Positions 4,302 through 23,743 of a stretch of 36,205 nt of DNA are shown one piece after another. Each line of letters starts with the position of its first letter. Within the stretch, counting starts at the first letter, position 1. The notes under the pieces are model-generated. The model was not told the DNA's origin. It did no database searches and saw only the letters and a list, made by a program, of their open reading frames with translations. Source of the DNA: Candidatus Methanoperedens sp. (GTDB lineage Archaea > Halobacteriota > Methanosarcinia > Methanosarcinales > Methanoperedenaceae); the NCBI GenBank assembly GCA_012026795.1, contig VEPM01000041.1:1-36205 (forward strand), written 5' to 3'. The position numbers and the translations under genes are program-made.

Positions 4302-4616
4302 GAACTGCGCCCCCTCTTTTCGAAAATTTGTGGCTGGCATGAAACGGCAAATTTGCAGGTAAATATGGTGCTAAAATGCGGCTGAACTTTGCGTTATTCA
4401 ATGCGATATTCACCGCAAAGGACGCAAAGAGCGCAAAGCTGGGGCGTCTTCTGATTCTGGATTCATGCGCAACAAAGGGATTTCGCATCTTAATCTACGG
4501 ATTCAAATGTTCAAAAACATATATTGATGCTGAAATCTTCAGATACCTCTTTCAAATCCTTCATTAAACACGTGGAATAACTATTTATGTATTCAATCAC
4601 AATCTTTTGAATACAT
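4302..4616. other. 315-bp non-coding region with repeat module
   Basis: No convincing gene. It contains the best-preserved CGCAAAG/CGTCTT module (4386-4486) and an A+T-rich tail that runs into the damaged UPF0175 gene. A 63-codon open frame across 4376-4567 is explained by the repeat and was not called. Confidence 0.6.
4386..4486. repeat. CGCAAAG / CGTCTT repeat module, copy 3
   Basis: Three exact 9-bp-phased units, CGCAAAGGA, CGCAAAGAG and CGCAAAGCT, start at 4414, 4423 and 4432. ACTTTGCG at 4386-4393 is complementary to these words and gives a hairpin. GGGGCGTCTT, TTCATGCGC and GGATTTCGCATCT follow, matching the modules at 1185 and 1471. Confidence 0.75.
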
Positions 4617-4946
4617 ATTGGCGCTACAATAACAACTCGTGTACCTGATGACATCGAGAAGAATATCGAAAACATCTCCCGCATTGAACATCTTGATAAA
4701 TCAACAGTAGTCCGCAGGCTCCTGAGTAAAGCAGTACAGGACTGGCTGATAGAAAATGCACTGGAGCAGTACAGGGATGGGAAAATAACGATCGGCAAGG
4801 CGGCAGACATGGTGGGCATTCCTCTTCGCGAGATGATATCTATTGCTGCAAAGAAAGAAATACCATTCCAGTACAGCTTCGATGATCTCCAGGAAGATTT
4901 TCGTACGGCTAAGCTTCATGTCCACATATCTCCTGCAGTAAAATAG
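4617..4946 (+). pseudogene. UPF0175-family antitoxin-like gene without a normal start codon
   Basis: The frame ending at TAG 4944-4946 encodes about 107 residues: an N-terminal ribbon-helix-helix-like part (TITTRVPDDIEKNIENIS, then STVVRRLLSKAVQDWL) and the UPF0175 core (ALEQYRDGKITIGKAADMVG, then IPFQYSFDDLQEDF). UPF0175 proteins are antitoxin-like DNA binders, usually next to a PIN-type toxin. Here no toxin partner is visible on either side. In-frame stop TGA is at 4608-4610 and no ATG, GTG or TTG follows before the conserved region; only ATA or ATT would be available (ATT 4617). The gene has probably lost its start to the repeat upstream, though a rare ATT start is possible. This gene is too damaged at the 5' end to appear as an ordinary open frame. 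Confidence 0.7.
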
Positions 4947-5018
4947 ATAAAAATTTCGATGCAGTTTAAATGTACAAAACACAATGTATAGCTCTATTTA
5001 CAGTATATTTCCCGAATG

Positions 5019-5090
5019 AACCACAGAGAGCACAGAGAACACAGAGACATATTTAAAAAATCTCTGTGCTCTCTGTGACCTCTGTGGTTT
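5019..5090. repeat. Long inverted repeat made of 9-bp CACAGAG words
   Basis: Three exact 9-bp units, CACAGAGAG, CACAGAGAA and CACAGAGAC, start at 5022, 5031 and 5040. The right arm (about 5062-5088) is built from CTCTGTG words, and the two can pair over nearly 28 bp around an A+T loop. It lies between the converging ends of the UPF0175-like gene and the AAA ATPase, so it may stop transcription from both sides. Confidence 0.8.
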
Positions 5091-5092
5091 TG

Positions 5093-5115
5093 AATTTTCG
5101 GATAGGTTCTAAGAG
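5093..5115 (-). repeat. Solo IS5-type terminal repeat at the end of the AAA ATPase
   Basis: Read on the minus strand, TCTTAGAACCTATCCGAAAA matches the left end of the IS5-family element at 34899 (GAGCCTATCCGAAAAGT) at 15 of 17 positions, and the outside flank CTTA is also the same. No transposase or second end lies nearby. It looks like the remains of a related element that once extended toward lower coordinates. The TAG stop of the ATPase (5109-5111) is formed within this junction. Confidence 0.5.
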
Positions 5116-6356
5116 ATTATTGATGTAATAAAAACAAACGGCAGATATGTAATCCTATCGCGCTCTTCCAGAATATTTTTGCAGGCAACAATAATATTAT
5201 CCGGTTTGTATTTCTCCCTGAAACTATCCAGCGATCTTCCGGGACTTCTTCCCCCGCTCTTTGATTCAATGGCGGTAAACCCTGCTTTATCCAGTACGAA
5301 ATCCACCTCTGCTCTGGATTTACTTCTCCAGAATTTTACTTCCATACCAGCATAAGTGAGCTGGTTGAAAATAAAATTCTCATTCAATAGACCGATATCC
5401 TGTCTGAGGTCATATGACCTGAAATCATCAATAACACTATTCCTGATACCATTATCATAAAAATAAATTTTTGGAACTTTAATAATTTCAGTTCTTTTGT
5501 TGGTGAAAAAAGGGATCACTCTTTTGCAGATGAAGGTTTTTTCCAGAATATTAAGATGGGTTAAAAGGCTACTGTAATTAAACTCTGAAGCTTCACACAG
5601 GTTATTGTAAGATACAAGTCCTCCGAGCTGCAATGAAAGCGCTTTTATTAGTTTGCTCATGTTAAAATCAGTCGTTAGACCCAGGAGGTCTTTTATCTCC
5701 CTGAGAAAGTAAGTGCTATAAATATTACGAAGGACTGTTTTTTTCTCATCGTCAGTATTTGCCAGTGCAACTCTTGGATATCCGCCAAATATCAGGTATT
5801 CATCATAAACGACATTCACCATATCAATAAGTGCAGAGCTGACCTCCGGAAATTTTCCTTTATTGGACAGGTACGCTTTGATCGCCTCTTTTTTTTCAAG
5901 ATATACGCCAAAAAGCGACTCGTTTTTAAATAGCAAGAATTCTTCAAACGAAAGCGGATACAAATCAAACACAAATATTCTCCCAACAAGGTATTTGATG
6001 CCATGTATCGTGAGTCCGGGCGCAGATGATCCGGAAATAAGTATTTTTGTTCCAGGATAGCGATCGTATATGTACTTCAGTTTTTGTCCGCTTTCCTTTG
6101 CATACTGGAATTCATCAATGATAAGATAGCGGTAGTCTCTGGCATAAATCTCTGCAAATGCTTTCTCATCCTCCACGAACAGTTCCAGTGTTTTCCTGTC
6201 CTCAAAGCTCAGGAACACTGCTTTTTCAAGTGTGTCTAATATATGCCTCATGAGTGTTGTTTTGCCTGACTGGCGGGGACCGAGGATAGCGATTATTTCA
6301 GGCATTTGCAGATGTTGTATTATTGTCTGTTCCAGGTCTCTTTTTATGTATGGCAT
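5109..6356 (-). CDS. AAA+ ATPase with DUF4143-like C-terminal domain
   Basis: A 415-residue protein of the archaeal/bacterial ATPase family usually annotated as ATP-binding protein with DUF4143. Walker A is GPRQSGKTT (residues 26-34), Walker B is YLIIDEFQYA with D81 and E82, and ILISGSSAPG at about 105-114 fits sensor 1. A winged-helix-like middle part follows, then a PD-(D/E)xK-like nuclease fold with E326, D352 in AEVDFVL, and E364-S-K366. The predicted role is nucleic-acid or protein remodelling; these proteins are common, often accessory, and their function is not settled. The stop codon coincides with a solo IS5-type end, so the last few residues may have been altered by that event. It is transcribed alone. 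Confidence 0.85.
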   Translation of the reverse strand: MPYIKRDLEQTIIQHLQMPEIIAILGPRQSGKTTLMRHILDTLEKAVFLSFEDRKTLELFVEDEKAFAEIYARDYRYLIIDEFQYAKESGQKLKYIYDRYPGTKILISGSSAPGLTIHGIKYLVGRIFVFDLYPLSFEEFLLFKNESLFGVYLEKKEAIKAYLSNKGKFPEVSSALIDMVNVVYDEYLIFGGYPRVALANTDDEKKTVLRNIYSTYFLREIKDLLGLTTDFNMSKLIKALSLQLGGLVSYNNLCEASEFNYSSLLTHLNILEKTFICKRVIPFFTNKRTEIIKVPKIYFYDNGIRNSVIDDFRSYDLRQDIGLLNENFIFNQLTYAGMEVKFWRSKSRAEVDFVLDKAGFTAIESKSGGRSPGRSLDSFREKYKPDNIIVACKNILEERDRITYLPFVFITSIIS

Positions 6357-6526
6357 AGTTTTAACCCTGCTAAAATTTACATATTGATATTATTAGCAGG
6401 GAAGATATTTAAAATTTTGGTATCATATAATTTTGCCTTTTTAGTTTAATTCCTTATTTACGTAAAAGAATATCAATTAAAACACAGGCGTTAACTATAT
6501 CATTATTGTAGAGCAGTTTTAATGGG

Positions 6527-8671
6527 ATGACAGGCTGGATAGATTCTATTTCAGGAAAAAAGCAAATTTTATTCTCCAAACACCGTTTTCATTATTTTAT
6601 CTTTTTAATACTTTCCTTGGCGCTGGTCATGGACTTTTTCTCTCCGGGTTACATTTTAACCCTGGATATGATATTTACCCCTGATACTTTTCGAATATCG
6701 GATTCATTTTACGGATTGAGCAATCAATATTCTACTTTGCCTCTGTATGCATTTCTTGATCTCATAGGTATTTTTCTCTCAAATGAAATAATTCAAAAAT
6801 TGATTTTTTTCCTTGTCTTTTTTGTTTCAGGTGTCTCAATGTACAAACTCTGTCCTGAAGAATGGGGAATAGGAAGATATTTTGCTGGCTTTCTGTACAT
6901 GATCAATCCTTTTATCTATGTCAGGTTCCTGGCAGGTCACTGGCTGATCCTGCTTGCTTACGCGATCTCACCAATAGTTATTAAATCCTTCATGGATTTT
7001 TTCAAGAACCCTTCTACTAAAAGATCATTATATGCAGCCTTTCTCATAACAGTTGTATTTTTTATTGAGACTCATACGCCATTCCTTTTGTTGATCGTTT
7101 TTGGTATTTTTTATATTATTAAAATTTTTGAATGCGGGAAAAATGCGCAAGAGGTCATTTATATATCAAAAAGATCGCTCTTGATCGGTTTATCCCTGCT
7201 GTTGCTTAACTCGTACTGGCTTATCCCGAATTTTACAGGAAATAACACTCCTCTTGGTGAGATCACAAACTCCGATCTTTATCTTTTTACAACCAAACAT
7301 GATATCAACTTCAACACTCTCTTTACAACATCCTCCATGTACGGCTTCTGGCGCGGCGGCTACCTGTATACAAAAGATTTGCTGCCGTACTGGTACCTCT
7401 TTTTCATCTTCATATTATTTCTTGCAGTTCATGGTTTCACTTTAAACTACAGGCATCCGGAGTATGGGGTCTATGTCAGGTCATTCGGAATAGTTGCTGT
7501 CCTGTCGGCATTGCTTGCCACAGGTATTTCCGGCCCACTCGGAAGCGCATTCGAATTTCTTTTTAACAACATATTCCTTTTTAAAGGATTCAGGGAACCC
7601 CAGAAATTTGTGGCGCTTCTTGTAATGGCTTACGCATATCTCGGAGGTCTGGGAGTTGCAGAGCTGGAAAAGATTATAAAAGCAAAAAGTTCAGGAAGCA
7701 ACGTATATAATAACGTTAATAAATTCGGGACATGGCTCCTGATCGCTCTTGCAATTTCGACTCCTTTCATTTATTCCTACACTATATTTGATGGCTTCCA
7801 GGGCCAGCTTAAAACCACTGATTATCCGAAAGACTGGTACGCTGTGAACGATTACCTTAATGAGGATAAACAGGATTTTAATATATTGTTCATGCCATGG
7901 CACCTTTATATGGACTTCAAGTGGCTTCCAACACCCCAGAAACGCATTGCAAATCCGGCAAGCATCTTTTTTGATCAGCCTGTGATGCAGGGGGAAAATA
8001 TGGAGGCCGGACTGATCTATAGTTCTTCTTCAAACCCGGTTACAGATTACATCGAGTTCCTGTTATGGAAGAAAGATAAAATAGAGAATTTCGGTGAACT
8101 TGTTGCGCCGCTCAATGTGAAATATATAATTCTTACAAAAGAAGTTGATTATGGACAATATGATTTTCTTTATAAACAAAGGGATCTGGAGCTGGTAAAG
8201 GACACTGAAAATCTTATAGTTTTCAGGAACATGTATCCGGTCTCCAAATTTTACGAGGCAGATAGGGTGATCACCATAAAAGGCTGGGAGGATTTACTTG
8301 ATTTGAGCAGGACCCGGGACATAACTTCATTTGCTATTGTGATAGGGAATGAAACAAATATAGAATCATCGACAGGGCAGGCTCTTAATTATTCTATTGA
8401 CTATCCTGCCAGGTATTTACTCGATCGGCCTTCGAAACGCTATATTGTTTTTTCCCGGGGGTATTCAGAAGACTGGAAGCTTGAAGGAAAGCCTCCTTTT
8501 GCGAACTTTGGAGTAACGAACGCTTATGATACTTCCGGGGTCATAGAGAATATTATATATTATGAAAGATTTAATATTTATTTAATTGGATATATTGTTT
8601 CAGGGATTGCATTCATATTTTTGATGATCTTATATTTTAATGAAAAAATCCGCAAAAGAGTTGGCTTATAG
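6527..8671 (+). CDS. Large GT-C-like multi-pass membrane protein
   Basis: A 714-residue protein with about ten hydrophobic segments in residues 20-410, a soluble region of about 270 residues, and a final transmembrane segment close to the C-terminus (YLIGYIVSGIAFIFLMILYF). This plan, multi-pass N-terminal part and large extracellular C-terminal part, fits GT-C glycosyltransferases or YfhO-like proteins that use lipid-linked sugars at the cell surface. An acidic pair is not clearly placed in the first loop, so the catalytic Asp cannot be named. The gene converges with a polysaccharide flippase with 1 bp between stops, which supports a role in surface glycan or lipoglycan assembly. The start at ATG 6527 has no strong ribosome binding site; GTAGAGCAG lies about 10 nt upstream. 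The precise reaction is unknown. Confidence 0.65.
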   Translation: MTGWIDSISGKKQILFSKHRFHYFIFLILSLALVMDFFSPGYILTLDMIFTPDTFRISDSFYGLSNQYSTLPLYAFLDLIGIFLSNEIIQKLIFFLVFFVSGVSMYKLCPEEWGIGRYFAGFLYMINPFIYVRFLAGHWLILLAYAISPIVIKSFMDFFKNPSTKRSLYAAFLITVVFFIETHTPFLLLIVFGIFYIIKIFECGKNAQEVIYISKRSLLIGLSLLLLNSYWLIPNFTGNNTPLGEITNSDLYLFTTKHDINFNTLFTTSSMYGFWRGGYLYTKDLLPYWYLFFIFILFLAVHGFTLNYRHPEYGVYVRSFGIVAVLSALLATGISGPLGSAFEFLFNNIFLFKGFREPQKFVALLVMAYAYLGGLGVAELEKIIKAKSSGSNVYNNVNKFGTWLLIALAISTPFIYSYTIFDGFQGQLKTTDYPKDWYAVNDYLNEDKQDFNILFMPWHLYMDFKWLPTPQKRIANPASIFFDQPVMQGENMEAGLIYSSSSNPVTDYIEFLLWKKDKIENFGELVAPLNVKYIILTKEVDYGQYDFLYKQRDLELVKDTENLIVFRNMYPVSKFYEADRVITIKGWEDLLDLSRTRDITSFAIVIGNETNIESSTGQALNYSIDYPARYLLDRPSKRYIVFSRGYSEDWKLEGKPPFANFGVTNAYDTSGVIENIIYYERFNIYLIGYIVSGIAFIFLMILYFNEKIRKRVGL

Positions 8672-14030: not shown

Positions 14031-14390
14031 ATGGTTAAGCTCGATCAAATCAACATTTCAAATGACGGCCTCACTAAATTTTTCAGTCCCATAGAGGCTG
14101 CAATACTCCGGGCATTGTGGAGTGAAGGGGAAATGACCACCTCAGAGCTAACAGGAAAGACAAATATCCCGTTGACGAGTGTTGCAGGAACTCTTGACAG
14201 GCTTGTGAAGGCAGGATATACAACGCGGCGAACTGAAATGGTTAATGGAAGAGTAAGATATGTTTATGAACCGGTCCTTTCAGAAGAAGAAGCGGCCAGC
14301 GAGATCACAACAAAAATACTTGACAGCCTGGTACAGGCATTCGGCCCTGTTGCGGTTGAAAACTTTTCAAAATACAGTGATAAAAAATGA
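14031..14390 (+). CDS. BlaI/MecI-type winged-helix repressor
   Basis: A 119-residue protein of the penicillinase-repressor family. The winged helix runs from about residue 19 to 85: EAAILRALWSEGEMTTSEL, then IPLTSVAGTLDRLVKAGYTTRR and a wing with GRVRYVYEPVLS. In bacteria such dimers are cleaved by a membrane metalloprotease after a signal. Here a short membrane metalloprotease follows at once, with a 4-bp overlap (14387-14390), so the repressor/protease pairing is kept, although no penicillin-sensing domain is seen. The likely targets are its own operon and perhaps htpX. There is no beta-lactam gene nearby, and archaea lack the usual peptidoglycan, so the signal must be something else. Confidence 0.85.
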   Translation: MVKLDQINISNDGLTKFFSPIEAAILRALWSEGEMTTSELTGKTNIPLTSVAGTLDRLVKAGYTTRRTEMVNGRVRYVYEPVLSEEEAASEITTKILDSLVQAFGPVAVENFSKYSDKK

Positions 14391-15061
14391 ATCTATTCGG
14401 TGAAATAAGCTGTTATGGGCAGTGCTTAGGATCATGGGCACCAATTGTAGCTTTTATTGTTATAATATCAATAACATCAATAGCAACGAGCTTGATGTTA
14501 AAGGACCCGAAAAAAAGGCTTCAAACATTTGCTTTTGCGCAGGTTTCGGGGCTAATTGGCGTAGCCTTAACATATTATCTCATGAATTGCAGTGAGATGC
14601 TGTCAATGTATCTCTTTTTAGCTTATGTGGCTATTTCCACAATCCTGATATTTTGTACGCTGCGTTATTATGACAGGCTGATGATAAAACGACTTGAAGC
14701 AAAACCCGCAGGAAGCATTTTGAAATGGACACAGGAATATGTGGATAAGCTTACATCTGCAAAAGTTTATTATTTTGATTCCGCGGTTCCAAAAGCATTT
14801 GCAGCAGGACGTTCGATTTTCATATCAATAGGACTTCTAGAAATATTGGATGATAATGAATTGAAGGCCGTACTGGCGCATGAATCATGGCATATACGGC
14901 ATAATTCCAGAATGCCATTTCTTTCGCGGTTTGCATTAATGGCATTTTCATCCTCCTCCGAGCCTGAAATTGAAGATCAGGCAGATCGTTTTGCAGCCAG
15001 GATCGCAGGACGTGCGGCACTTTTTTCTGCGCGAAATAAGGTTGATAAAGTATTTATCTAA
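14387..15061 (+). CDS. Membrane metalloprotease, M56/M48 type, BlaR1-like core
   Basis: A 224-residue protein with three hydrophobic segments in residues 15-95 and a zinc site HESWH (H165, E166, H169), followed by SEPEIEDQADRFAARIAG, whose Glu (probably E196) would be the third ligand. The lead-in NELKAVLAHE is typical of M48/M56 peptidases. The domain is short and no extracellular sensor is attached. Coupled to the BlaI-type repressor by a 4-bp overlap, it is a good candidate to cleave that repressor. The last codons and the region after the stop are part of a 32-bp tandem duplication, so the C-terminus KVDKVFI is repeated outside the gene. An htpX-like gene follows after 54 bp. Confidence 0.75.
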   Translation: MNLFGEISCYGQCLGSWAPIVAFIVIISITSIATSLMLKDPKKRLQTFAFAQVSGLIGVALTYYLMNCSEMLSMYLFLAYVAISTILIFCTLRYYDRLMIKRLEAKPAGSILKWTQEYVDKLTSAKVYYFDSAVPKAFAAGRSIFISIGLLEILDDNELKAVLAHESWHIRHNSRMPFLSRFALMAFSSSSEPEIEDQADRFAARIAGRAALFSARNKVDKVFI

Positions 15062-15107
15062 GAAAATATAAGGTAGATAAAGTATTTATTTAAGAAAATA
15101 TAAGGAT
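15044..15107. repeat. 32-bp tandem duplication over the protease stop codon
   Basis: Two copies of GATAAAGTATTTAT[C/T]TAAGAAAATATAAGG stand head to tail from 15044 and 15076. The first copy contains the end of the protease gene and its TAA; the second would encode the same last residues and stop. The second copy brings AAGG close to the htpX start (15116). Confidence 0.85.
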
Positions 15108-15115
15108 GATAGAAT

Positions 15116-16081
15116 ATGTGGCTTAAATTAAGATTGTATTTAATAATGGCAGTATTGTTTGCCATAATCTATGGACTTGTGGTATTTGCAGTGAATCAAA
15201 TGGGACTTCAGGGGACAGGATTTTTCTTTTATGCTGTTATCGCAACGATCATGATGCTGATCCAGTACATGATAGGACCAAAGATGGTAGAATGGTCAAT
15301 GGGGATACACTATGTTACTGAAGCAGAACACCCGGACCTTCACAGGATGGTCGCTGAACTTGCAAGAGATGCCGGTATTCCGAAACCCAGGATTGGCATA
15401 GCCAGAATACCCATACCAAATGCATTTGCATTCGGGCGCTGGGCAAAAGACGGACGTGTTTGTGTTACCGAAGGTATAATGAGCCTGCTTAATGAAAAAG
15501 AACTGAGGGCAGTTCTGGCGCATGAAATATCACACCTGAAACACAGGGATGTTGCGATCATAACGATGATTAGCGTAATTCCCATGATATGCTGGTACTT
15601 TGCATGGAACCAGCTGTTCTCAGGAGGCAGGGAACGGGGAAATGGAGTGCTTATTGGAATAGTGGCACTGGTTATATATTTTATAACAAATCTACTTATC
15701 CTGTACGTATCACGGATCAGGGAATATTATGCAGATGAAGGTGCAGTCAAACTCGGTAGCTCACCGCATCATCTTGCATCAGCTCTTTATAAACTTGTTT
15801 ATGGCAGTGCCAGGGTTTCTAAAGAATCGTTAAAACCCGTAGAGGGTATGAAAGCCTTCTTTGCTAATGACCCGTCGCGAGCTGGCAGTGATATAAGGGA
15901 ATTATCCCAGATAGACCTTGATGGAAGTGGGACTATCGATATGAACGAACTTATGGCTCTTCGGACCCGCCCGATAAAGGTCAAGACCGGCGATAAGTTA
16001 TTGGAAATGTTCAGCACACATCCGAATATGCTAAAACGCATCCAGCGGTTGTCCTCTCTCCAGGGGATTTCAGCATATTAA
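15116..16081 (+). CDS. htpX: HtpX-like zinc metalloprotease with an EF-hand loop
   Basis: A 321-residue M48B membrane protease that degrades damaged membrane proteins in the HtpX family. Two helices lie at residues 8-28 and 35-55, the zinc site is HEISH (H136, E137, H140) with E203 in REYYADEGA as third ligand, and a further hydrophobic pair lies at about 143-163 and 177-198. Residues 277-288 read DLDGSGTIDMNE, a textbook EF-hand calcium loop with D277, D279, S281, D285 and E288, placed between the protease core and the C-terminal STHPNMLKRI segment. That insertion suggests calcium control, and I recall similar inserts in other methanogen HtpX proteins, not checked. AAGGATGAT at 15102-15110 is the ribosome binding site. 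It follows the BlaI-type repressor and protease, likely as one cluster. Confidence 0.88.
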   Translation: MWLKLRLYLIMAVLFAIIYGLVVFAVNQMGLQGTGFFFYAVIATIMMLIQYMIGPKMVEWSMGIHYVTEAEHPDLHRMVAELARDAGIPKPRIGIARIPIPNAFAFGRWAKDGRVCVTEGIMSLLNEKELRAVLAHEISHLKHRDVAIITMISVIPMICWYFAWNQLFSGGRERGNGVLIGIVALVIYFITNLLILYVSRIREYYADEGAVKLGSSPHHLASALYKLVYGSARVSKESLKPVEGMKAFFANDPSRAGSDIRELSQIDLDGSGTIDMNELMALRTRPIKVKTGDKLLEMFSTHPNMLKRIQRLSSLQGISAY

Positions 16082-16122: not shown

Positions 16123-19100
16123 CTAAGGCATCATCACAGTCCCCGTAATATTTCCGGTCTGCTTCTCAATAAGTTCAATATCCTGTATCACAACATCGCT
16201 TAATCCTGTGGATACTGTAACTGAACTATTCGGATAGTGTGTTACGTACATGGCCGTAAGATCATATGTACCTGTAGTAACGGCCAGCGAATAGAATCCT
16301 GTTTCATTTGTCCTTGTTGAAATACTAGTATTCGTGAATACATTCACACCTGCGATACCTGTTTTACTGACACTGTCCATAACTGTGCCATTGATAAAAG
16401 GGGATGGCGTGAAATTCATATAAGTGACAGTACCTGTTGATGAACTCACGTTGATGGAAGTGCCATCCTTCATATACTCGTTATTCACCAGTATTCTCCA
16501 TGATGCATAACCGGGCACATCAATATTCACAGTATGAATGCCATTCTGTAATACGACGAGATTATATTTTCCTTCAGAATTTGAGTAATCGCTGTCACCG
16601 CCATTTATGGATATATATGCATTCGGTACAGGCGATCCCCCGTCCATAATCGTTCCAGTAATAACACCTGAATTTTCAAATTGCCCATGATCATAGGCTG
16701 CTGTCGTACTTGCTTCATATGCATAATCCGACTGTATCGGATCACCTGTATGGTACACATAGGCATCTTTCACAAAATATGGACCATTCATCAATGTTCC
16801 ATATAAGTATCTTCCATCAAAGTCCAGCTGTATCTTTTGAGGCTGGCTGTCATTCAAGAAGGTCATATTGTTTGCCCAGATGATCTCTTCTCCACTGCTG
16901 TCCATCAATCTTGCCATTGCCACAACATTTCCAGAATTCTTTGGAATCAGTTCTATTTCCACAGTCAGATTCTCGTACAGACCATCATTGTCGGTATCTG
17001 TAACATAATCAAAATACTTACCTGTTAGCACAACAAGGTACTGGAAATTACTGTGATCATAAGACGATGTGGTATATGCATCGCTTATGTAATCCAGTTT
17101 GTTGCCATCTCCATCAAACAATATGATATCCTTTAAATAATATTGTCCGTCCATGCCATGGCCAAATAAACGCAACCCGCTGAAGTTCAATTCTAATGAT
17201 TGAGTCCCTGCATCCAGGTAAACATAATTGTTGCTTGATGATACAATTTCACTCCCATTACTATCATACAGCGATCCGCTCACAAGATAATTCCCTGCAA
17301 CTGAAACATTGATCCCGGCATTCACTATGAGGTAGTTAAATGACCCATCCGAATCTGTATCTTTTCCATAATCAGAATAGGAATTATTAAATTCAGCGCT
17401 TTTATTTTGAAAATCGGTATAATTATATGTATATGTTCTATATGGACTATAAGCAAAGTCGATCTGACTGTTATTCATATCAAAAATTTTTAAATAGGTT
17501 AGATTATACGGGCCATCAATCCTATGCTGGCGAATTGCTGATCCATTAAAGTATAGAGTTGAAGTCTGGTTTCCAGCATATAAATATTGGGGAGTTATTG
17601 CCATTACTATGGCATCTCCATTTTTATCATAAAGCCATCCTTCCAGTTCATAATTCCCGGATACTGCAACAGTCACTCCTGCATTAATGGTTAAATTATC
17701 ATAGAATCCATCATCATTAGTATCTGATCCAGCATCAGAATAATTACCTGAAAATTCCACATCCTTCCTGTCAAAATCCACAAATAAATACGGGGATGTT
17801 ACATAAGCATTATATACCTGATCAATTCCAATGCCCTCCTGATCATCCAGCAATAAACTCAGGTTATAGGGTCCATCCACTCCATTTTGACGAATTTCTA
17901 ATCCAGAAAAGTTCAAATTTATAGTCTGGTTCCCTGCAGTAAGTATGAAGGGCTCATTAAGCCAGATAATCTCGTTCCCGTTTTGGTCCGAGAGAGTGGA
18001 AAATATGGAAAATGTTCCTCCTTCTGTCACATTTATCTCTGCTGATATTGTTAAGAACTCATATAACCCGTCTCCGTCAGTATCTACTCCCATATCTGAA
18101 TAGTTTCCCGTAATAGTTGCATTTACGGGTAAATAAAATAAATCTTCAAATGATTTAGGTTTTGCTTTCTCAGGCGGATTGGATTGCTTTCCTGGGAACG
18201 CCCAATCGTTTTCCACTACTCCTCTTGCCGAATTCGCAGCCTTCATAGCCATATATTCATTATCACCGTAGCACTTATATTCACGGGCTTTTTTTGCTTC
18301 AAGATTATAGGTATCTGTGGTATCATTCCTGGTATGTGATATGTTATCCTCATAGGAGTCCGGAAGGCTATCGTTATATTTCCGGCTTCTATAACATAAT
18401 GCGGGATTATAATCTGAATCATTTTTACCTGTGAAATTACCCCCTGCTTTCCATTGGTCTTTCACCCAGATATGATAAAGTTCATGCTCAATAACTTCAG
18501 CAGTGGTATCAATTCCTGTTACGGTTGGTCCTCCAAAACTCTCGCCATTGTCAAGTACAATAGCACGATCATAATGTGTGTCCGCTGCCCTCGGCGCGAG
18601 ATAAACTTTTCCTCCCTGTGCATACCCATAACCCGGGGCACTTGCATTATATGTTGTATCTTCCATTTTTGGAACAGCCTTATCTTTTGTCCAGTATTCG
18701 AACCAGTTCGGAGTTATACCATTATCCTTGTCGTATTTTACAAAAAATATCTTAAAGCTTTTATTTTTAGTGCCGGATCCACCATTCTCACCTCCAGAAT
18801 CAGTATAAAACATTTTTCCATTAATATTTTGTATTCCATGATCTGCTGGCTTGTACGTATATTTCATTCCTTGAGCATCAACAGGAATGCCGGGTCCTGC
18901 CCAGACAATTTTTGTTACTGTATATCCAACTCCTTCTTTTATTATTGCCCCCAGAGTGGCATTATATTTCGCCAGAGGATTTGTCTCATTGCCAGGAGGT
19001 CCTGTCAGATTGATATCCACAAATATTGGAGGTTCAGATTTTATATTGATCGCTTTATCAAACACGTTTCCCCATGTCCAGCTAAGTTCACACGGGTCGT

Positions 19101-19665
19101 TCGGGTCGTGATTCCATCCAAGATTTGCCCGCAATAATGTAGAATTAACAGCAATTGGAGGAATTGTTACAGGCTTACTGGCATACATATTCCCTTTATA
19201 GTTTATGTTTTTATAACCAGTCAGCATATCATCAATAACTTTTTCGTTATTCTCAAAAACTTTGTTTCCATTCCAATCAATCCATACATTAACATACTCC
19301 GGACTTTTGTCATATTCGGGACATGTTTTTCCATTGGTGCAGCCCGTGGGATTCTTAATGAAAACATCGACATCGATCTCCATAGTCCCACCGGGTTTTT
19401 GATTGTATTTAATATCTAAAATATGCTCATACTGCGTATTCCCGCCGTTTGATTCGCAGTAAGCTGTATCATTCTGGCTAATTACAACAGAGGCATCTTT
19501 AACAGGAACCGGAATGACAGATCGAACATCCTGCTCTTGATCAATGCCATCTGCCACTGCTATGTTCACTGATATGGTCAACCACGCAGACAATAAAATT
19601 GAAAGCACAGCTATTCTAAATACCTTTATGCAAGTACAATAAGCATCCGAAATAAGCAATTTCAT
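16123..19665 (-). CDS. Secreted 1180-aa multi-repeat protein with an HExxH metallopeptidase site
   Basis: The N-terminus (about residues 1-39) is a signal peptide. A GEVED-like segment with VWIDWNGNKVFENNEKV lies at about 126-145. A candidate zinc site is HELYH (H394, E395, H398); E470 in GDNEYMAM could be the third ligand. From about 518 to 1000 come four repeats of roughly 120 residues, each starting like GNYSDMGVDTDGDGLYE; the DxDxDG parts resemble calcium-binding loops. Two carboxypeptidase-regulatory-like domains follow (about 1005 and 1085), each beginning ITGTIMDG or INGTVMDS. A third such domain starts (NITGTVMMP) and stops at once, so the protein seems cut short at its C-terminus, where a surface anchor might have been. 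Many N-x-S/T sites suit an archaeal glycoprotein. The function may be surface proteolysis or adhesion. Confidence 0.75.
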   Translation of the reverse strand: MKLLISDAYCTCIKVFRIAVLSILLSAWLTISVNIAVADGIDQEQDVRSVIPVPVKDASVVISQNDTAYCESNGGNTQYEHILDIKYNQKPGGTMEIDVDVFIKNPTGCTNGKTCPEYDKSPEYVNVWIDWNGNKVFENNEKVIDDMLTGYKNINYKGNMYASKPVTIPPIAVNSTLLRANLGWNHDPNDPCELSWTWGNVFDKAINIKSEPPIFVDINLTGPPGNETNPLAKYNATLGAIIKEGVGYTVTKIVWAGPGIPVDAQGMKYTYKPADHGIQNINGKMFYTDSGGENGGSGTKNKSFKIFFVKYDKDNGITPNWFEYWTKDKAVPKMEDTTYNASAPGYGYAQGGKVYLAPRAADTHYDRAIVLDNGESFGGPTVTGIDTTAEVIEHELYHIWVKDQWKAGGNFTGKNDSDYNPALCYRSRKYNDSLPDSYEDNISHTRNDTTDTYNLEAKKAREYKCYGDNEYMAMKAANSARGVVENDWAFPGKQSNPPEKAKPKSFEDLFYLPVNATITGNYSDMGVDTDGDGLYEFLTISAEINVTEGGTFSIFSTLSDQNGNEIIWLNEPFILTAGNQTINLNFSGLEIRQNGVDGPYNLSLLLDDQEGIGIDQVYNAYVTSPYLFVDFDRKDVEFSGNYSDAGSDTNDDGFYDNLTINAGVTVAVSGNYELEGWLYDKNGDAIVMAITPQYLYAGNQTSTLYFNGSAIRQHRIDGPYNLTYLKIFDMNNSQIDFAYSPYRTYTYNYTDFQNKSAEFNNSYSDYGKDTDSDGSFNYLIVNAGINVSVAGNYLVSGSLYDSNGSEIVSSSNNYVYLDAGTQSLELNFSGLRLFGHGMDGQYYLKDIILFDGDGNKLDYISDAYTTSSYDHSNFQYLVVLTGKYFDYVTDTDNDGLYENLTVEIELIPKNSGNVVAMARLMDSSGEEIIWANNMTFLNDSQPQKIQLDFDGRYLYGTLMNGPYFVKDAYVYHTGDPIQSDYAYEASTTAAYDHGQFENSGVITGTIMDGGSPVPNAYISINGGDSDYSNSEGKYNLVVLQNGIHTVNIDVPGYASWRILVNNEYMKDGTSINVSSSTGTVTYMNFTPSPFINGTVMDSVSKTGIAGVNVFTNTSISTRTNETGFYSLAVTTGTYDLTAMYVTHYPNSSVTVSTGLSDVVIQDIELIEKQTGNITGTVMMP

Positions 19666-19910
19666 AATTCCACAATCCTATCCTGCCAATTGAGAGGTCT
19701 CATTCTATCCGGTTCCACTCATTAATTTTGTGAACATTCAAAGTATATAATCGTTCCGAAAAAGTTTGATTTATTATTTTGCATTAATGCATAGCAGTAA
19801 TATAGAAAAATATAATATCTATTAAATCTTCAAAAAATTGAGGATAGGTCTTAAAAAAATTCCAGATTTTAAAATATTGATCCATATTTGAAATCTGGTG
19901 GAGGATGGAT

Positions 19911-20444
19911 ATGGGAAAATATTTTATAAAAATATTGATTATATTAGTTGTAATAATATTAATATCTTCAAATGCCAGAGCCGATTTTGATTTTGGCATA
20001 AGTGTGGCTCCGGCAAGGCTGCAACTTGCACCTGGCGGGGCGGGAATGTTTGAGATAAGTGTGGAGGATCTCTCCAGTCCTTTGACCGGCGGAACAGTCA
20101 CCCTTAGTGTATCACATGATGATGTTGGGCACAATATAGCTGGGGCCGGGCTTGCACCTAACCCTCTTGGTGTGCCGCGAGGAGGCATTGGCCGCGCAAC
20201 CTGGAATGTAATTGCTTCCCCTGATGCCGTACCTGGTACAGTTATCCATGTGGATTTTTCTGGAAGCGACCCGATCCATCATGCTTTTGCTGAAATAGAA
20301 ATAGCACAGCCCGTAGGTGGAACCATGCTCAGGATCAATAAACTTGATCTGCTTGCTGCGTATCTTTCTTCTTCGTATGCAGCTTTAGGAATAGTTTCTT
20401 CTCTGGTATTGTTGATATTGGGCAGAAGAATGAAGAGGTTTTGA
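19911..20444 (+). CDS. Small surface protein with signal peptide and C-terminal membrane anchor
   Basis: About 177 residues. A signal peptide (IKILIILVVIILISSNARA) is followed by a beta-rich extracellular domain (SVAPARLQLAPGG...) and a C-terminal helix (YAALGIVSSLVLLILG) ending in RRMKRF, a typical membrane anchor with a cytoplasmic basic end. ATG 19911 is preferred to ATG 19905 because GGTGGAGG (19897-19904) would be 6 nt away from it but directly adjacent to the other. No family is recognised; the first part resembles surface proteins with NEW3/immunoglobulin-like folds. Gene order with the next gene (overlap or 14-bp gap) suggests an operon. Confidence 0.7.
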   Translation: MGKYFIKILIILVVIILISSNARADFDFGISVAPARLQLAPGGAGMFEISVEDLSSPLTGGTVTLSVSHDDVGHNIAGAGLAPNPLGVPRGGIGRATWNVIASPDAVPGTVIHVDFSGSDPIHHAFAEIEIAQPVGGTMLRINKLDLLAAYLSSSYAALGIVSSLVLLILGRRMKRF

Positions 20445-20458
20445 TATTAATTTTTAAG

Positions 20459-21253
20459 ATGAATGAAAAAAAAAGAATCTTAAGTGCGGTAATTATTATT
20501 TTTTTATTGATTTTTGGCGTCTCTAATTCCGATGATATGGATTTAGAATCCCAGGATTCAAAAATTGAAATATATGCAGATGCAAATTTCCAGAAAAAAG
20601 CAGCTATAATAGATCAGTTATTTCAATATCAGAACATGACTTTTGTTGAAACAGCCACAGACATATTGAACCAGAGTGGATACACCGTAGATTATTTCAG
20701 CAATAATATAACCGTGGATTTTTACAGGAACCTGCCAGATAAAGGATATAATGTAATAATTTTCAGAGTTCATTCCCTGGCTACTTATAACGAGACAACA
20801 AACGTTCCTGTTTCTTTATTTACTTCTGAGCGTTATGATAAGAATAAATATATTTATGAGAGTCTTACAGACAGGCTTTCAAATGTCATATATTCACAGT
20901 ATGAATACAAAAAAGGAATATCATATTTTGGAATAAATCCATCCTTTATATCAGACAGTACAAAAGGCAACTTCCAGGACACGATTGTCATTACAATGGG
21001 ATGCGAAGGACTTCGCAATAATATGATGGCCAGGGCTTTCATCGAAAAAGGAGCCATTGTTTATATCGGCTGGAATTCCCAGATACTGGCATCAAAAACA
21101 GATAGTACAACTATTAATTTCATGGAACATTTCTTCCTCGAAAAACTCACCCTCAGGAATGCAATACGAGAAACTTTCAATGAAACCGGAGGTGACCATC
21201 AAAACTTTCTATATTACTATCCCGTTAAAATGGGTTATATTAAAAGTGAATGA
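20459..21253 (+). CDS. Secreted protein resembling CHAT/caspase-like cysteine peptidases
   Basis: A 264-residue protein with an N-terminal signal peptide (ILSAVIIIFLLIFGVSNS). The pattern YNVIIFRVHS with H105, DTIVITMGCEG with C182, then MARAFIEKGAIVYIGWNSQI and a tail NFMEHFFLEK...RNAIRETFNE follows the order of clan CD peptidases of CHAT type: His after one buried strand, Cys after the next, then the Arg/Ala-rich segment with GA and IGW. This is recognised by pattern, not by alignment, so it is an inference. A TTG at 20441 overlaps the previous stop by 4 bp and is an alternative start; ATG 20459 was chosen because the signal peptide fits it. Its extracytoplasmic place and the neighbour anchored proteins suggest a surface processing role. 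Confidence 0.55.
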   Translation: MNEKKRILSAVIIIFLLIFGVSNSDDMDLESQDSKIEIYADANFQKKAAIIDQLFQYQNMTFVETATDILNQSGYTVDYFSNNITVDFYRNLPDKGYNVIIFRVHSLATYNETTNVPVSLFTSERYDKNKYIYESLTDRLSNVIYSQYEYKKGISYFGINPSFISDSTKGNFQDTIVITMGCEGLRNNMMARAFIEKGAIVYIGWNSQILASKTDSTTINFMEHFFLEKLTLRNAIRETFNETGGDHQNFLYYYPVKMGYIKSE

Positions 21254-21263
21254 AAATTTGAAA

Positions 21264-21338
21264 TGGGCCTGACCGGATTTGAACCGGTGACCGCCCGGTT
21301 ATGAGCCGGGCGCTCTAACCTGACTAAGCTACAGGCCC
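21264..21338 (-). tRNA. tRNA with CAT anticodon, probably tRNA-Ile2
   Basis: A 75-nt cloverleaf on the minus strand: acceptor GGGCCTG pairing with CAGGCCC, anticodon stem CCCGG / CCGGG around loop CTCATAA, T-loop GGTTCAAATCC, discriminator A, no encoded CCA. The anticodon is CAT. It lacks the features of the initiator, and the GGGCC acceptor resembles archaeal isoleucine tRNA rather than elongator Met, so the wobble C is probably modified to agmatidine to read AUA. Elongator Met is the alternative. Confidence 0.85.
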
Positions 21339-21382
21339 TCAAAAGTGCATTATGGTTTTAATTTAGCTATTAAATACTAAAA

Positions 21383-21455
21383 CGCCGCCAACAGGGCTCG
21401 AACCTGTGACATCCTGGTTAACAGCCAGGCACTCTACCAGCTGAGTTATGGCGGC
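21383..21455 (-). tRNA. tRNA-Asn (GTT)
   Basis: A 73-nt cloverleaf on the minus strand: acceptor GCCGCCA pairing with TGGCGGC, D-arm with AGCTGGTAGAGT, anticodon stem CCTGG / CCAGG around CTGTTAA, T-arm ACAGGTTCGAGCCCTGT, discriminator G. The anticodon GTT reads Asn codons. It is 44 bp from the other tRNA and on the same strand, so both may come from one transcript; both lie against the flow of the flanking genes. Confidence 0.93.
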
Positions 21456-21739
21456 ATTGTCAAGCGAATCCTAAAGGGGTATCATTTGATTTAAGCCTTT
21501 TGATAATATGGGCGCTGGAGTTATATTATTACGAATAGCATTTCGCAATTATTCGTATTTTTCATATACTAATTTATTTCAGATCAACAGAAATCTATTT
21601 CTTCTATTAAACTGTTGTATCATTATAATGATTATCAGATTAATATCTGTAATACAGTCAATCACATCACCTATCAGACAAAAAAATATCGGAATATTAT
21701 TGATGTTCACAGGATTTATAATGCTAAAAACATAAGAAC

Positions 21740-23743
21740 ATGAGATATATATATTTTCTCTTATTCATAACAATTGCAGTCTTATTTACTGTAAATCCAG
21801 TGCTTGCTGAAGATTGTGACAATCTCAACGAAGAAGAAATTTGCTGGGGCAGCAACACAAGTACAACACTGAGCTGGACAAACCCCAGGACCACATCAGG
21901 AGAATATCTGATAGAGGCAAGGGATTTTAACTGGCTGGGCTCGATTTCTATCAGGGTAACCAAAAATGGGATTGTAAAAGATGGAGTTTTATTCGAAGGT
22001 GAAAATTATTTATTTGATTTTTCCGGTAATTCTACTTTTAATGGGATTAAAATAATTGCAGACCAGGTTTCAAATATTAATTCGTTTCCATCAAATATAG
22101 GAACATTTCCATCGGATCCGCAGGCAAAAATTTCATTCAAGTCATCTATACCAAAAGAAAAGGAAAAACCCATTCTTGAAATATCAATCATTGCAGAGAA
22201 TAAAACAAAAACATATCCCGGAATTACAGCTAATATAACCATTCAAAATTCAGGGGATTCAGACCTTGTAGAAATGCAAGCCATGATAATTTATGATGGC
22301 CTTGAACTGGATGAATTTGATTTCGAAAAGAATTCATTGAATGAAATAACTGCATCAGGCCCTGAAATCAAATGGGAAAATGTAAGTTCATATAAACTTA
22401 CACCAGCAAATCACGGTATAATCAAAAATGGATACAACATACAAATATCAAATTTTTCAAATGAAACTGCCATAATAAATATCAGCTACAATGGATCAAT
22501 GAAAAGTGACGCACTTGTAGAAGGCGGTTCTGTAATATTCGGTTACACAAAGGAAAATGAATATAAGGGGATAAAAATACTTAGTACCCATATTTCAAAC
22601 GATGCAGCAGAATTAATATTGCAGGCCCCTGTAAAAAACAGCCTGAAGCGCAGATACCCGGTTTTCTTCGGAGGGAGAAATGAATCCATAAACCTCGGAT
22701 TTAAAGTACCAGGATCTTCAAGAAAAATGTATACAATATCAGTCATAGTAAGCGGAAAAGACAGGGAAGGAAATAATTACATAAAAAACTCAACATCTAC
22801 AATTTTATTGCAGAATACTTTTTATATAAAAAAGATCACCTCAAACTCGATCCTGGGTGAAAATTTATATCCCGAATACTCAAGAGTCAGGGACATCGGG
22901 GCTCTTAAAAATATTACCTATATTACGATCAGTGTAGTTAATCTTCAGAATTATCCTGTGCATAACGTAACACTCAAAGACACAATTCCGCCGGGTTTTA
23001 ATTTTATGGATAACTTGAACAAAACCTCTGTGTCCTGGGATTTTGGTATAAATGCAAATGATCATAAAGAATTTACCTATGCGATCACAGCAAAAAAACA
23101 GGGGATTTATAATGTTCCAAAAGCAGAACTTACCTGGAGCGAATGGGGAGAATTCTTACGTCTGGAATCAAATAGCCCAAGAACATCCGTATCAGGCCCA
23201 TATATTGTTATGGAGAGGAGTTTCAATAAAAGTAATATTAACATTGGGGATACACTTCTGGTTTCTCTTTCATTAACCAACAATGGTGATATACCAACAA
23301 ATATCTTTGTTAATGATAGTGTGCCCCGGAATGCAACATTCATTTCAGGCACGTTATCTTTTTCCGGTTTCTTAAGACCCCGTGAGAATGCCCGGATATT
23401 CTATGCTGTCATGGTTAATGATACTATAATTGAATTCAAAGCTCCTGAAATAATATCCAAAAACCAGGGATTTGAATGGTATAAGCCCCTTCCTTCTAAA
23501 AAAATTTCAGGATTTCCTTCCGCACCGCCCGCTATTCCAACAATAGCCCCTGATATGGGTATTAAAGTTCCGGAACAAATACAACAGGTACATGAACAGG
23601 GCCCTTTTAACGGAATTTTCCTGAAGATAAATGAGGGGTTTCCCTGGTTTGGGGAGGCAATTTCAATAATTTCATTAATAATTATACTGTTATCCGGAAT
23701 TTTCCTGCTGATGAATAAGAAAAATAAGAAAAAAATAATTTAG
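21740..23743 (+). CDS. Secreted, membrane-anchored protein with DUF11-like domains
   Basis: A 667-residue protein. Signal peptide at residues 1-23 (YIYFLLFITIAVLFTVNPVLA), then a first domain with ICWGSNTSTTLSW, two or three CARDB/DUF11-like beta domains (for example ITISVVNLQNYPVHNVTLKD with TIPPGFNFMD, and LSLTNNGDIPTNIFVNDSVP), a Pro-rich linker around residues 595-615, and a C-terminal helix followed by a very basic end (MNKKNKKKII). Many N-x-S/T sites suit an archaeal glycoprotein. DUF11-type proteins are structural parts of cell envelopes; no catalytic motif is seen. Its stop overlaps the stop of the DEAD-box helicase on the other strand by 4 bp. Confidence 0.75.
   Translation: MRYIYFLLFITIAVLFTVNPVLAEDCDNLNEEEICWGSNTSTTLSWTNPRTTSGEYLIEARDFNWLGSISIRVTKNGIVKDGVLFEGENYLFDFSGNSTFNGIKIIADQVSNINSFPSNIGTFPSDPQAKISFKSSIPKEKEKPILEISIIAENKTKTYPGITANITIQNSGDSDLVEMQAMIIYDGLELDEFDFEKNSLNEITASGPEIKWENVSSYKLTPANHGIIKNGYNIQISNFSNETAIINISYNGSMKSDALVEGGSVIFGYTKENEYKGIKILSTHISNDAAELILQAPVKNSLKRRYPVFFGGRNESINLGFKVPGSSRKMYTISVIVSGKDREGNNYIKNSTSTILLQNTFYIKKITSNSILGENLYPEYSRVRDIGALKNITYITISVVNLQNYPVHNVTLKDTIPPGFNFMDNLNKTSVSWDFGINANDHKEFTYAITAKKQGIYNVPKAELTWSEWGEFLRLESNSPRTSVSGPYIVMERSFNKSNINIGDTLLVSLSLTNNGDIPTNIFVNDSVPRNATFISGTLSFSGFLRPRENARIFYAVMVNDTIIEFKAPEIISKNQGFEWYKPLPSKKISGFPSAPPAIPTIAPDMGIKVPEQIQQVHEQGPFNGIFLKINEGFPWFGEAISIISLIIILLSGIFLLMNKKNKKKII

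Follow-up and report, generated by a model that had tools for sequence, protein, structure and literature searches.

A secreted protein and a caspase-like protein are encoded side by side

The window analysed here is a stretch of 36,205 nucleotides from Candidatus Methanoperedens sp. (contig VEPM01000041.1), and the two genes of interest lie on its plus strand. The first (19911..20444) encodes a secreted protein of 177 aa, hereafter the partner, which is the candidate substrate of the second; an in-frame ATG is also present at 19905. The partner begins with a type I signal peptide, read directly from the sequence (MGKYFIKILIILVVIILISSNARA, 19911..19982), and ends with a C-terminal tail (VGGTMLRINKLDLLAAYLSSSYAALGIVSSLVLLILGRRMKRF, 20313..20441) made up of a VGG motif (20313-20321), a spacer, a transmembrane (TM) segment and a basic end, and the same tripartite tail is encoded upstream of homologues of the second gene. 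The partner body is probably Ig-like, a reading made by eye, since the model computed from the single sequence was poor (pLDDT 46), and no Pfam or NCBIfam model matched it. The second gene (20459..21253, ATG at 20459) encodes a protein of 264 aa, hereafter the enzyme; its open reading frame, conservation and structure model suggest a cysteine peptidase family protein of CHAT/caspase-like type (clan CD). A TTG at 20441 is an alternative start codon and shares bases with the stop codon of the partner gene. The genes are thus 14 bases apart, or overlapping if this TTG is the start, and are therefore likely co-transcribed. Residue numbers of the enzyme count from the ATG at 20459.

The first-pass annotation of this DNA had proposed such a pair, with H105 and C182 as the catalytic residues of a secreted peptidase and with a small anchored neighbour. 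Both open reading frames exist, the numbering is right for codons 20771-20773 and 21002-21004, and the neighbour does carry a type I signal peptide as well as a C-terminal TM segment and basic end. Adjoining the pair and transcribed away from it is a gene on the minus strand (16123-19665) for a secreted protein of 1180 aa that contains an HELYH motif and is possibly a zinc metallopeptidase, and positions 14031-16081 hold a three-gene run that was read by eye as a BlaI-type regulator, a BlaR1/M56-like membrane protease and an HtpX-like M48 protease.

The modelled enzyme has a clan-CD fold and a conserved set of residues

An AF2 model based on an alignment of seven sequences (mean pLDDT 77.4, pTM 0.76) consists of an alpha/beta domain preceded by an N-terminal helix. 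In this model, the candidate catalytic His, H105 (IIFRVHS), stands just after strand 99-103 (beta3), and the candidate nucleophile, C182 (ITMGCEG), just after strand 175-180 (beta4). In clan CD the His and Cys are located at the C-terminal ends of beta3 and beta4 (PMC4357240), and the model, together with the conservation described below, gives the enzyme the same placement. The best Foldseek match in the PDB was SAVED-CHAT (8tl0; E 3.6e-6, TM 0.53, which is moderate and was obtained with the seven-sequence model), and further top matches were TPR-CHAT/Craspase, Csx29, caspases 1/4/11, MALT1 and separase, so that the CHAT/caspase-like fold that had been read from the sequence was recovered in the model, and the predicted fold is that of clan CD. 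A few other proteins are also on the list, along with flavodoxins and flavodoxin-fused receptors, as is to be expected of a Rossmann-like sheet. A fold search of BFVD gave clan-CD-like matches that were weak only, and the matches from sequence searches of the PDB were due to chance.

In an alignment of 80 homologues, D52 (20612..20614, at the end of strand beta1 in the model), C182 and D215 (21101..21103, after the YIGW strand) were present in all 80, whereas R103, H105, E124 and G198 were each present in 79 and W205 in 77. The sole H105 exception is a divergent sequence in a row of unsure alignment, and in an earlier set of homologues both H105 and C182 were found in 34 of 34, which bears out the two residues singled out by the first-pass annotation. 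The near-invariant D52, R103, E124 and D215 would, together with H105 and C182, form the pattern expected of an active site. Clan CD structures conserve a Gly adjoining the catalytic His (PMC4357240), but here the sequence is V104-H105-S106, and in relatives the His is followed by Ser, Gln, Ala or Thr. Searches of Pfam, NCBIfam (June 2026), PADLOC and PHROG yielded no model for the enzyme or the tail; the enzyme had no Pfam family at E<=1, there was no clan-CD Pfam family among the matches of 30 homologues at E<=0.5, and with neither a Pfam nor an NCBIfam match the enzyme is not a member of any named family.

Distribution and predicted topology of the enzyme family

Since single-sequence searches found nothing in phages, plasmids, viral contigs and genome contigs, an alignment-based search was needed. 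Among the 186 genomes of the order to which the window belongs, a single-sequence search, which could miss a very divergent copy, matched the enzyme only in the window's own genome and found no homologue of the partner in the others, so that neither window gene was detected in the other 185 genomes. A sample of the phylum contained one clear further enzyme genome, Ca. Methanohalarchaeum thermophilum, in which the copies are broken. The alignment-based scan revealed relatives in Bathyarchaeota and in one Thermoplasmata bin, and within the Bathyarchaeota class the enzyme has members in 97 of 257 genomes.

Several matches were set aside. One (G417, L004) has many stops, lacks the family residues and was judged a chance match. 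Another (L013) is a broken copy with several stops, one of them at the Cys position; selenocysteine at this position was dropped as an explanation because the other stops also break the frame. The second copy in G509 (L026) seems to lie on a bacterial contig within an archaeal bin and was left out of taxonomic claims. The class to which G509 belongs also contains remote matches (L056-L070) of 315-395 aa with an NTHAG-type motif, possibly another clan-CD-like family.

The enzyme starts with a membrane helix (residues 3-26, 20465..20536), which AF2 secondary structure and the homologues indicate to be a likely signal anchor. A hydrophobic stretch precedes the domain in 72 of the 80 homologues, and because their N-termini are mostly Lys/Arg-rich, the predicted topology is N-inside with the domain outside the cell. 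The signal peptide formerly assigned to the enzyme appears correct as to the hydrophobic N-terminus but not as to a plain signal peptide, as the helix looks family-wide like an uncleaved signal anchor.

A tripartite C-terminal tail is linked to the enzyme

The tail consists of [VIL]-G-[GSA], a short spacer, a TM segment and a basic end. In the first linkage test, for which VGG itself was the criterion, a VGG/TM/basic tail was present in 16 of the 25 genes directly upstream on the same strand, compared with 13 of the 508 other genes in these loci (Fisher p 7e-17, which, like the Fisher p-value for co-occurrence, overstates independence because the genomes are related). Two tail profiles (A6 and A7) were run over the 257 Bathyarchaeota-class genomes, and a tail match was located within 1.2 kb at 38 of 117 enzyme matches, where about 0.15 would be expected by chance for all 38. 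Twenty-four of these 38 lie outside the seed loci, and at 21 of the 24 the tail is upstream and on the same strand. Signal and enzyme also co-occur across genomes, the enzyme being present in 59 of 77 tail-positive genomes compared to 97 of 257 overall (p 5e-17, with the same caveat). This co-occurrence is imperfect: five strong-tail genomes had no enzyme even at E<=1 (G520, G554, G574, G653 and G734, whose assemblies may be incomplete), 38 enzyme genomes had no tail match by profiles A6 and A7, and a linked tail gene was absent at about half or more of the enzyme loci. The partner is thus not always adjacent, a point that the first-pass annotation had raised, although a large share of the homologous loci have a gene for a tail-bearing surface protein directly upstream.

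When further loci were read without the VGG filter, the motif relaxed to IGG, LGG, VGA and VGS. All 40 collected tails have V, I or L at the first position and Gly in the middle, followed by G, S or A, but these letter counts describe the motif and are no test of it, being partly circular since VGG was itself the criterion of the first linkage test and part of the later set was selected for a known nearby tail. The tail proteins of type I (window, L074, L080, L082, L084, L085, L111 and L108) have no detectable mutual similarity outside the tail, so that the same tripartite signal is found on otherwise unrelated proteins, and in the PVGGYS group the bodies are common to the members as well as the tail. 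Tail types follow enzyme clades. The motif is absent from a nearby C-anchored protein in the window (21740-23743). The extracellular processing of surface proteins, at first only a guess, is strengthened by these findings and made more specific, in that the conserved element of the partner is the V-G-G/TM/basic tail, likely a substrate signal.

Some loci carry additional genes. In the PVGGYS clade, a convergent gene of ~110 aa (ILRTLPREKAFYFF type) is located directly downstream of the enzyme gene (L098, L100, L104, L113, L119-L121, L126-L128, L130 and L133). In two genomes, a protein of ~480 aa with IGGVSQ or VGGITQ, a TM segment and a basic end is encoded beside the enzyme (L111, 4861-6297, and L142, 479 aa, +1), and in L125 (G644) a small gene pair, toxin-antitoxin-like by eye, lies between the tail gene and the enzyme gene.

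A PGF-pre-PGF domain normally precedes the signal for archaeosortase A. In Ca. Methanohalarchaeum (L009, 7405-11349), a 1314-aa surface protein contains GLUG repeats, and its PGF-pre-PGF domain (1140-1263) is followed by IGGTILNTNLLDIWLPHIGLLALISLLGVVMVYSGWRLWSKD, so that an IGG tail is found where PGF-CTERM would stand; its gene converges on the enzyme locus and adjoins the broken enzyme gene. Because the domain that normally comes before an archaeosortase A signal here comes before an IGG tail, a tail swap has occurred in this surface protein. The same argument has been used for GlyGly-CTERM (PMC3237569).

The window pair was likely acquired laterally

In the window genome, the partner is the sole clear tail protein (E 4.5e-19; the next match has E 0.05). 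In the enzyme tree, the window sequence groups with G570 and then with a virus-like contig (support 99/77 and 95/76). In G570, the closest cellular relative, the enzyme follows a protein ending in VGGIVSPVDKLGLLAPYIGLTSTIVVTTVATAIYVKRVKRRKEKQ. The virus-like contig (L074, IMGVR_UViG_3300032118_003140) contains the cassette at 4374-6798, where the gene for an unrelated secreted protein of 498 aa, ending in VGGIVIPLDKFGLLAPYIGLASTILVAAAIHVRRVKRRKEKH, is directly followed by that for a family member with 47% identity; the opposite strand of the contig has matches to minor tail and scaffold-like proteins and, weakly, to a major head protein. The cassette thus lies opposite structural genes, moron-like, and may serve to alter the host surface. 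Directly downstream of the window enzyme, on the other strand, are genes for tRNA-Met (21264-21338) and tRNA-Asn (21382-21456), a common integration setting. In view of the grouping with G570 and the virus-like contig, the lack of matches in single-sequence searches of the rest of the order and the adjoining tRNA genes, the window pair was likely acquired laterally, possibly by a virus.

Comparison with known sorting systems

The described types of membrane sorting enzymes are sortase, exo/archaeosortase, rhombosortase and myxosortase (PMC11980579). Archaeosortase A/PGF-CTERM and exosortase/PEP-CTERM resemble the pair in combining a membrane-associated Cys enzyme with a tripartite tail of motif, TM segment and basic end, and archaeosortase A also acts on archaeal surface proteins, the new tail being found after a PGF-pre-PGF domain in Ca. 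Methanohalarchaeum. However, archaeosortases are multi-spanning and recognize PGF, whereas here one N-terminal helix is joined to a caspase-like domain and the motif is [VIL]GG; with a single helix and no NCBIfam match, the enzyme does not belong to the exosortase/archaeosortase family. Rhombosortase/GlyGly-CTERM shares the Gly-rich motif, TM segment and basic end, as well as the co-distribution of enzyme and tail (PMC3237569), but rhombosortase is a rhomboid intramembrane serine protease found mostly in proteobacteria. The closest parallel in layout is myxosortase MrtJ with JDVT-CTERM, where a single enzyme and a single target are encoded in a two-gene neighbourhood (PMC11980579), yet MrtJ is a CPBP glutamic intramembrane protease and its signal has an invariant Cys.

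Clan CD itself provides two further parallels. PorU is a clan-CD cysteine peptidase that works at the cell surface as a sortase for a C-terminal signal, but its substrate signal, in Bacteroidota, is a folded beta-sandwich domain without a VGG/TM/basic tail; PorU was absent from the top fold matches of the enzyme, and the lack of a Pfam match and the VGG/TM/basic end of the partner place the pair outside family C25. The GPI transamidase GPI8/PIG-K (family C13) acts on a small-residue site followed by a short spacer and a hydrophobic C-terminal tail. It is likewise a membrane-bound clan-CD enzyme and forms part of a membrane complex (PMC5379210). That complex is, in contrast, eukaryotic and multi-subunit, and GPI signals usually have no basic end; the enzyme had no Pfam C13 match, and C13 was not among the top 50 fold matches. 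The CHAT proteases (SAVED-CHAT, TPR-CHAT/Csx29) are the nearest solved folds and have His and Cys after beta3 and beta4 as well, but they are cytoplasmic, defence-linked and multi-domain, whereas the enzyme is predicted to be extracytoplasmic, is single-domain and has no Pfam match.

A proposed sorting mechanism

The conserved pairing of enzyme and tail across archaea points to undescribed machinery that trims and anchors surface proteins. We consider it quite probable that the pair is a dedicated C-terminal sorting protease/transpeptidase system, comparable in function to sortase, archaeosortase and rhombosortase but with a caspase fold. The analysis shows the fold, the conserved residues, the membrane tether, the tail, its linkage to the enzyme and their co-occurrence, from which we infer cleavage, its site, the transfer and the acceptor. 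The partner would be exported by Sec, lose its N-terminal signal peptide and be held by the C-terminal TM segment, so that V-G-G would lie immediately external to the membrane and the basic end on its inner side. Through its N-terminal helix as a tether, the enzyme would present its catalytic domain on the external face of the membrane beside V-G-G, and C182, activated by H105, would attack a bond in or next to [VIL]-G-G. The TM/basic tail would be dropped and an acyl-enzyme formed on the new C-terminus, to be resolved by a nucleophile, either a lipid or glycan amine or water. Transfer to a membrane lipid would be the likelier outcome, as the analogous GPI transamidase, archaeosortase and PorU suggest. 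A fuller version, to which we give somewhat less than even weight, is that prokaryotes independently evolved a counterpart of GPI anchoring, also carried by viruses, in which a membrane-tethered caspase-fold transpeptidase joins archaeal surface proteins to a membrane lipid via [VIL]-G-G.

Fold, linkage and co-occurrence would fit equally well if the enzyme were a releasing protease (sheddase) that cuts at VGG with water as sole acceptor and without anchoring. Clan CD enzymes are mostly endopeptidases (PMC12445089) and the partner offers an obvious membrane stem to cut, but the tripartite tail has the layout of known sorting signals, whose products usually stay on the surface (PMC11980579), and the IGG tail after a PGF-pre-PGF domain suggests an equivalent of archaeosortase processing; we regard a sheddase as rather unlikely, if a serious alternative. 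Still less probable is that the tail is a membrane anchor only, the pair being a mobile surface-adhesin module whose protease cuts something else, such as foreign proteins or the partner ectodomain. The many enzyme loci without a linked tail gene, the position of the window pair beside tRNA genes and the related pair on a virus-like contig would be compatible with this, whereas the unrelated bodies that have only the tail in common within one tail type, the agreement between tail type and enzyme clade, and the presence of a motif that plain anchoring does not need, and that the C-anchored neighbour lacks, argue against it. A CHAT-type effector of cell death or defence, membrane-anchored by chance, is suggested by the nearest solved folds, which are CRISPR- and SAVED-associated, but is very improbable given that PADLOC gave no match, that the predicted topology puts the domain outside the cell, and that in the loci read the linkage was to surface proteins and no linked defence genes were noticed. 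Equally improbable is that the protein lacks catalytic activity and binds the tail as a receptor or chaperone, since the near-invariance of C182, H105, D52, R103, E124 and D215 weighs against what the missing Gly beside the His might suggest.

As a C-terminal sorting system, the pair would join the known systems in kind, while the enzyme class and the signal appear to be new. A literature search for the tail and for a caspase-like sorting enzyme, with most subscription journals and preprints outside its scope, found no prior description. C-terminal sorting enzymes decide what sits on the prokaryotic surface, and if the proposal is correct, a caspase-fold type, occurring in Bathyarchaeota and scattered other archaea, would be added to them and a protein family that is still unnamed would gain a function. 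The set of processed surface proteins could be predicted for a major archaeal class that is mostly uncultured, and a simple two-gene system would be at hand to test clan-CD transpeptidation outside PorU and GPI transamidase.

Both many-to-one and dedicated enzyme-target patterns are known for sortase-type systems (PMC3237569). In genome G547 there are 26 tail matches for a single enzyme match, and other genomes have a dedicated pair of enzyme and tail. In the proposed sorting system, one enzyme would serve one substrate in the window genome, and in some Bathyarchaeota one unlinked enzyme coincides with many tail proteins. Unlinked enzyme copies (L075-L079 and L029) occur in genomes with several tail proteins and have a conserved housekeeping setting, with neighbours that by eye are dihydrodipicolinate synthase-like and homocysteine-biosynthesis-like genes.
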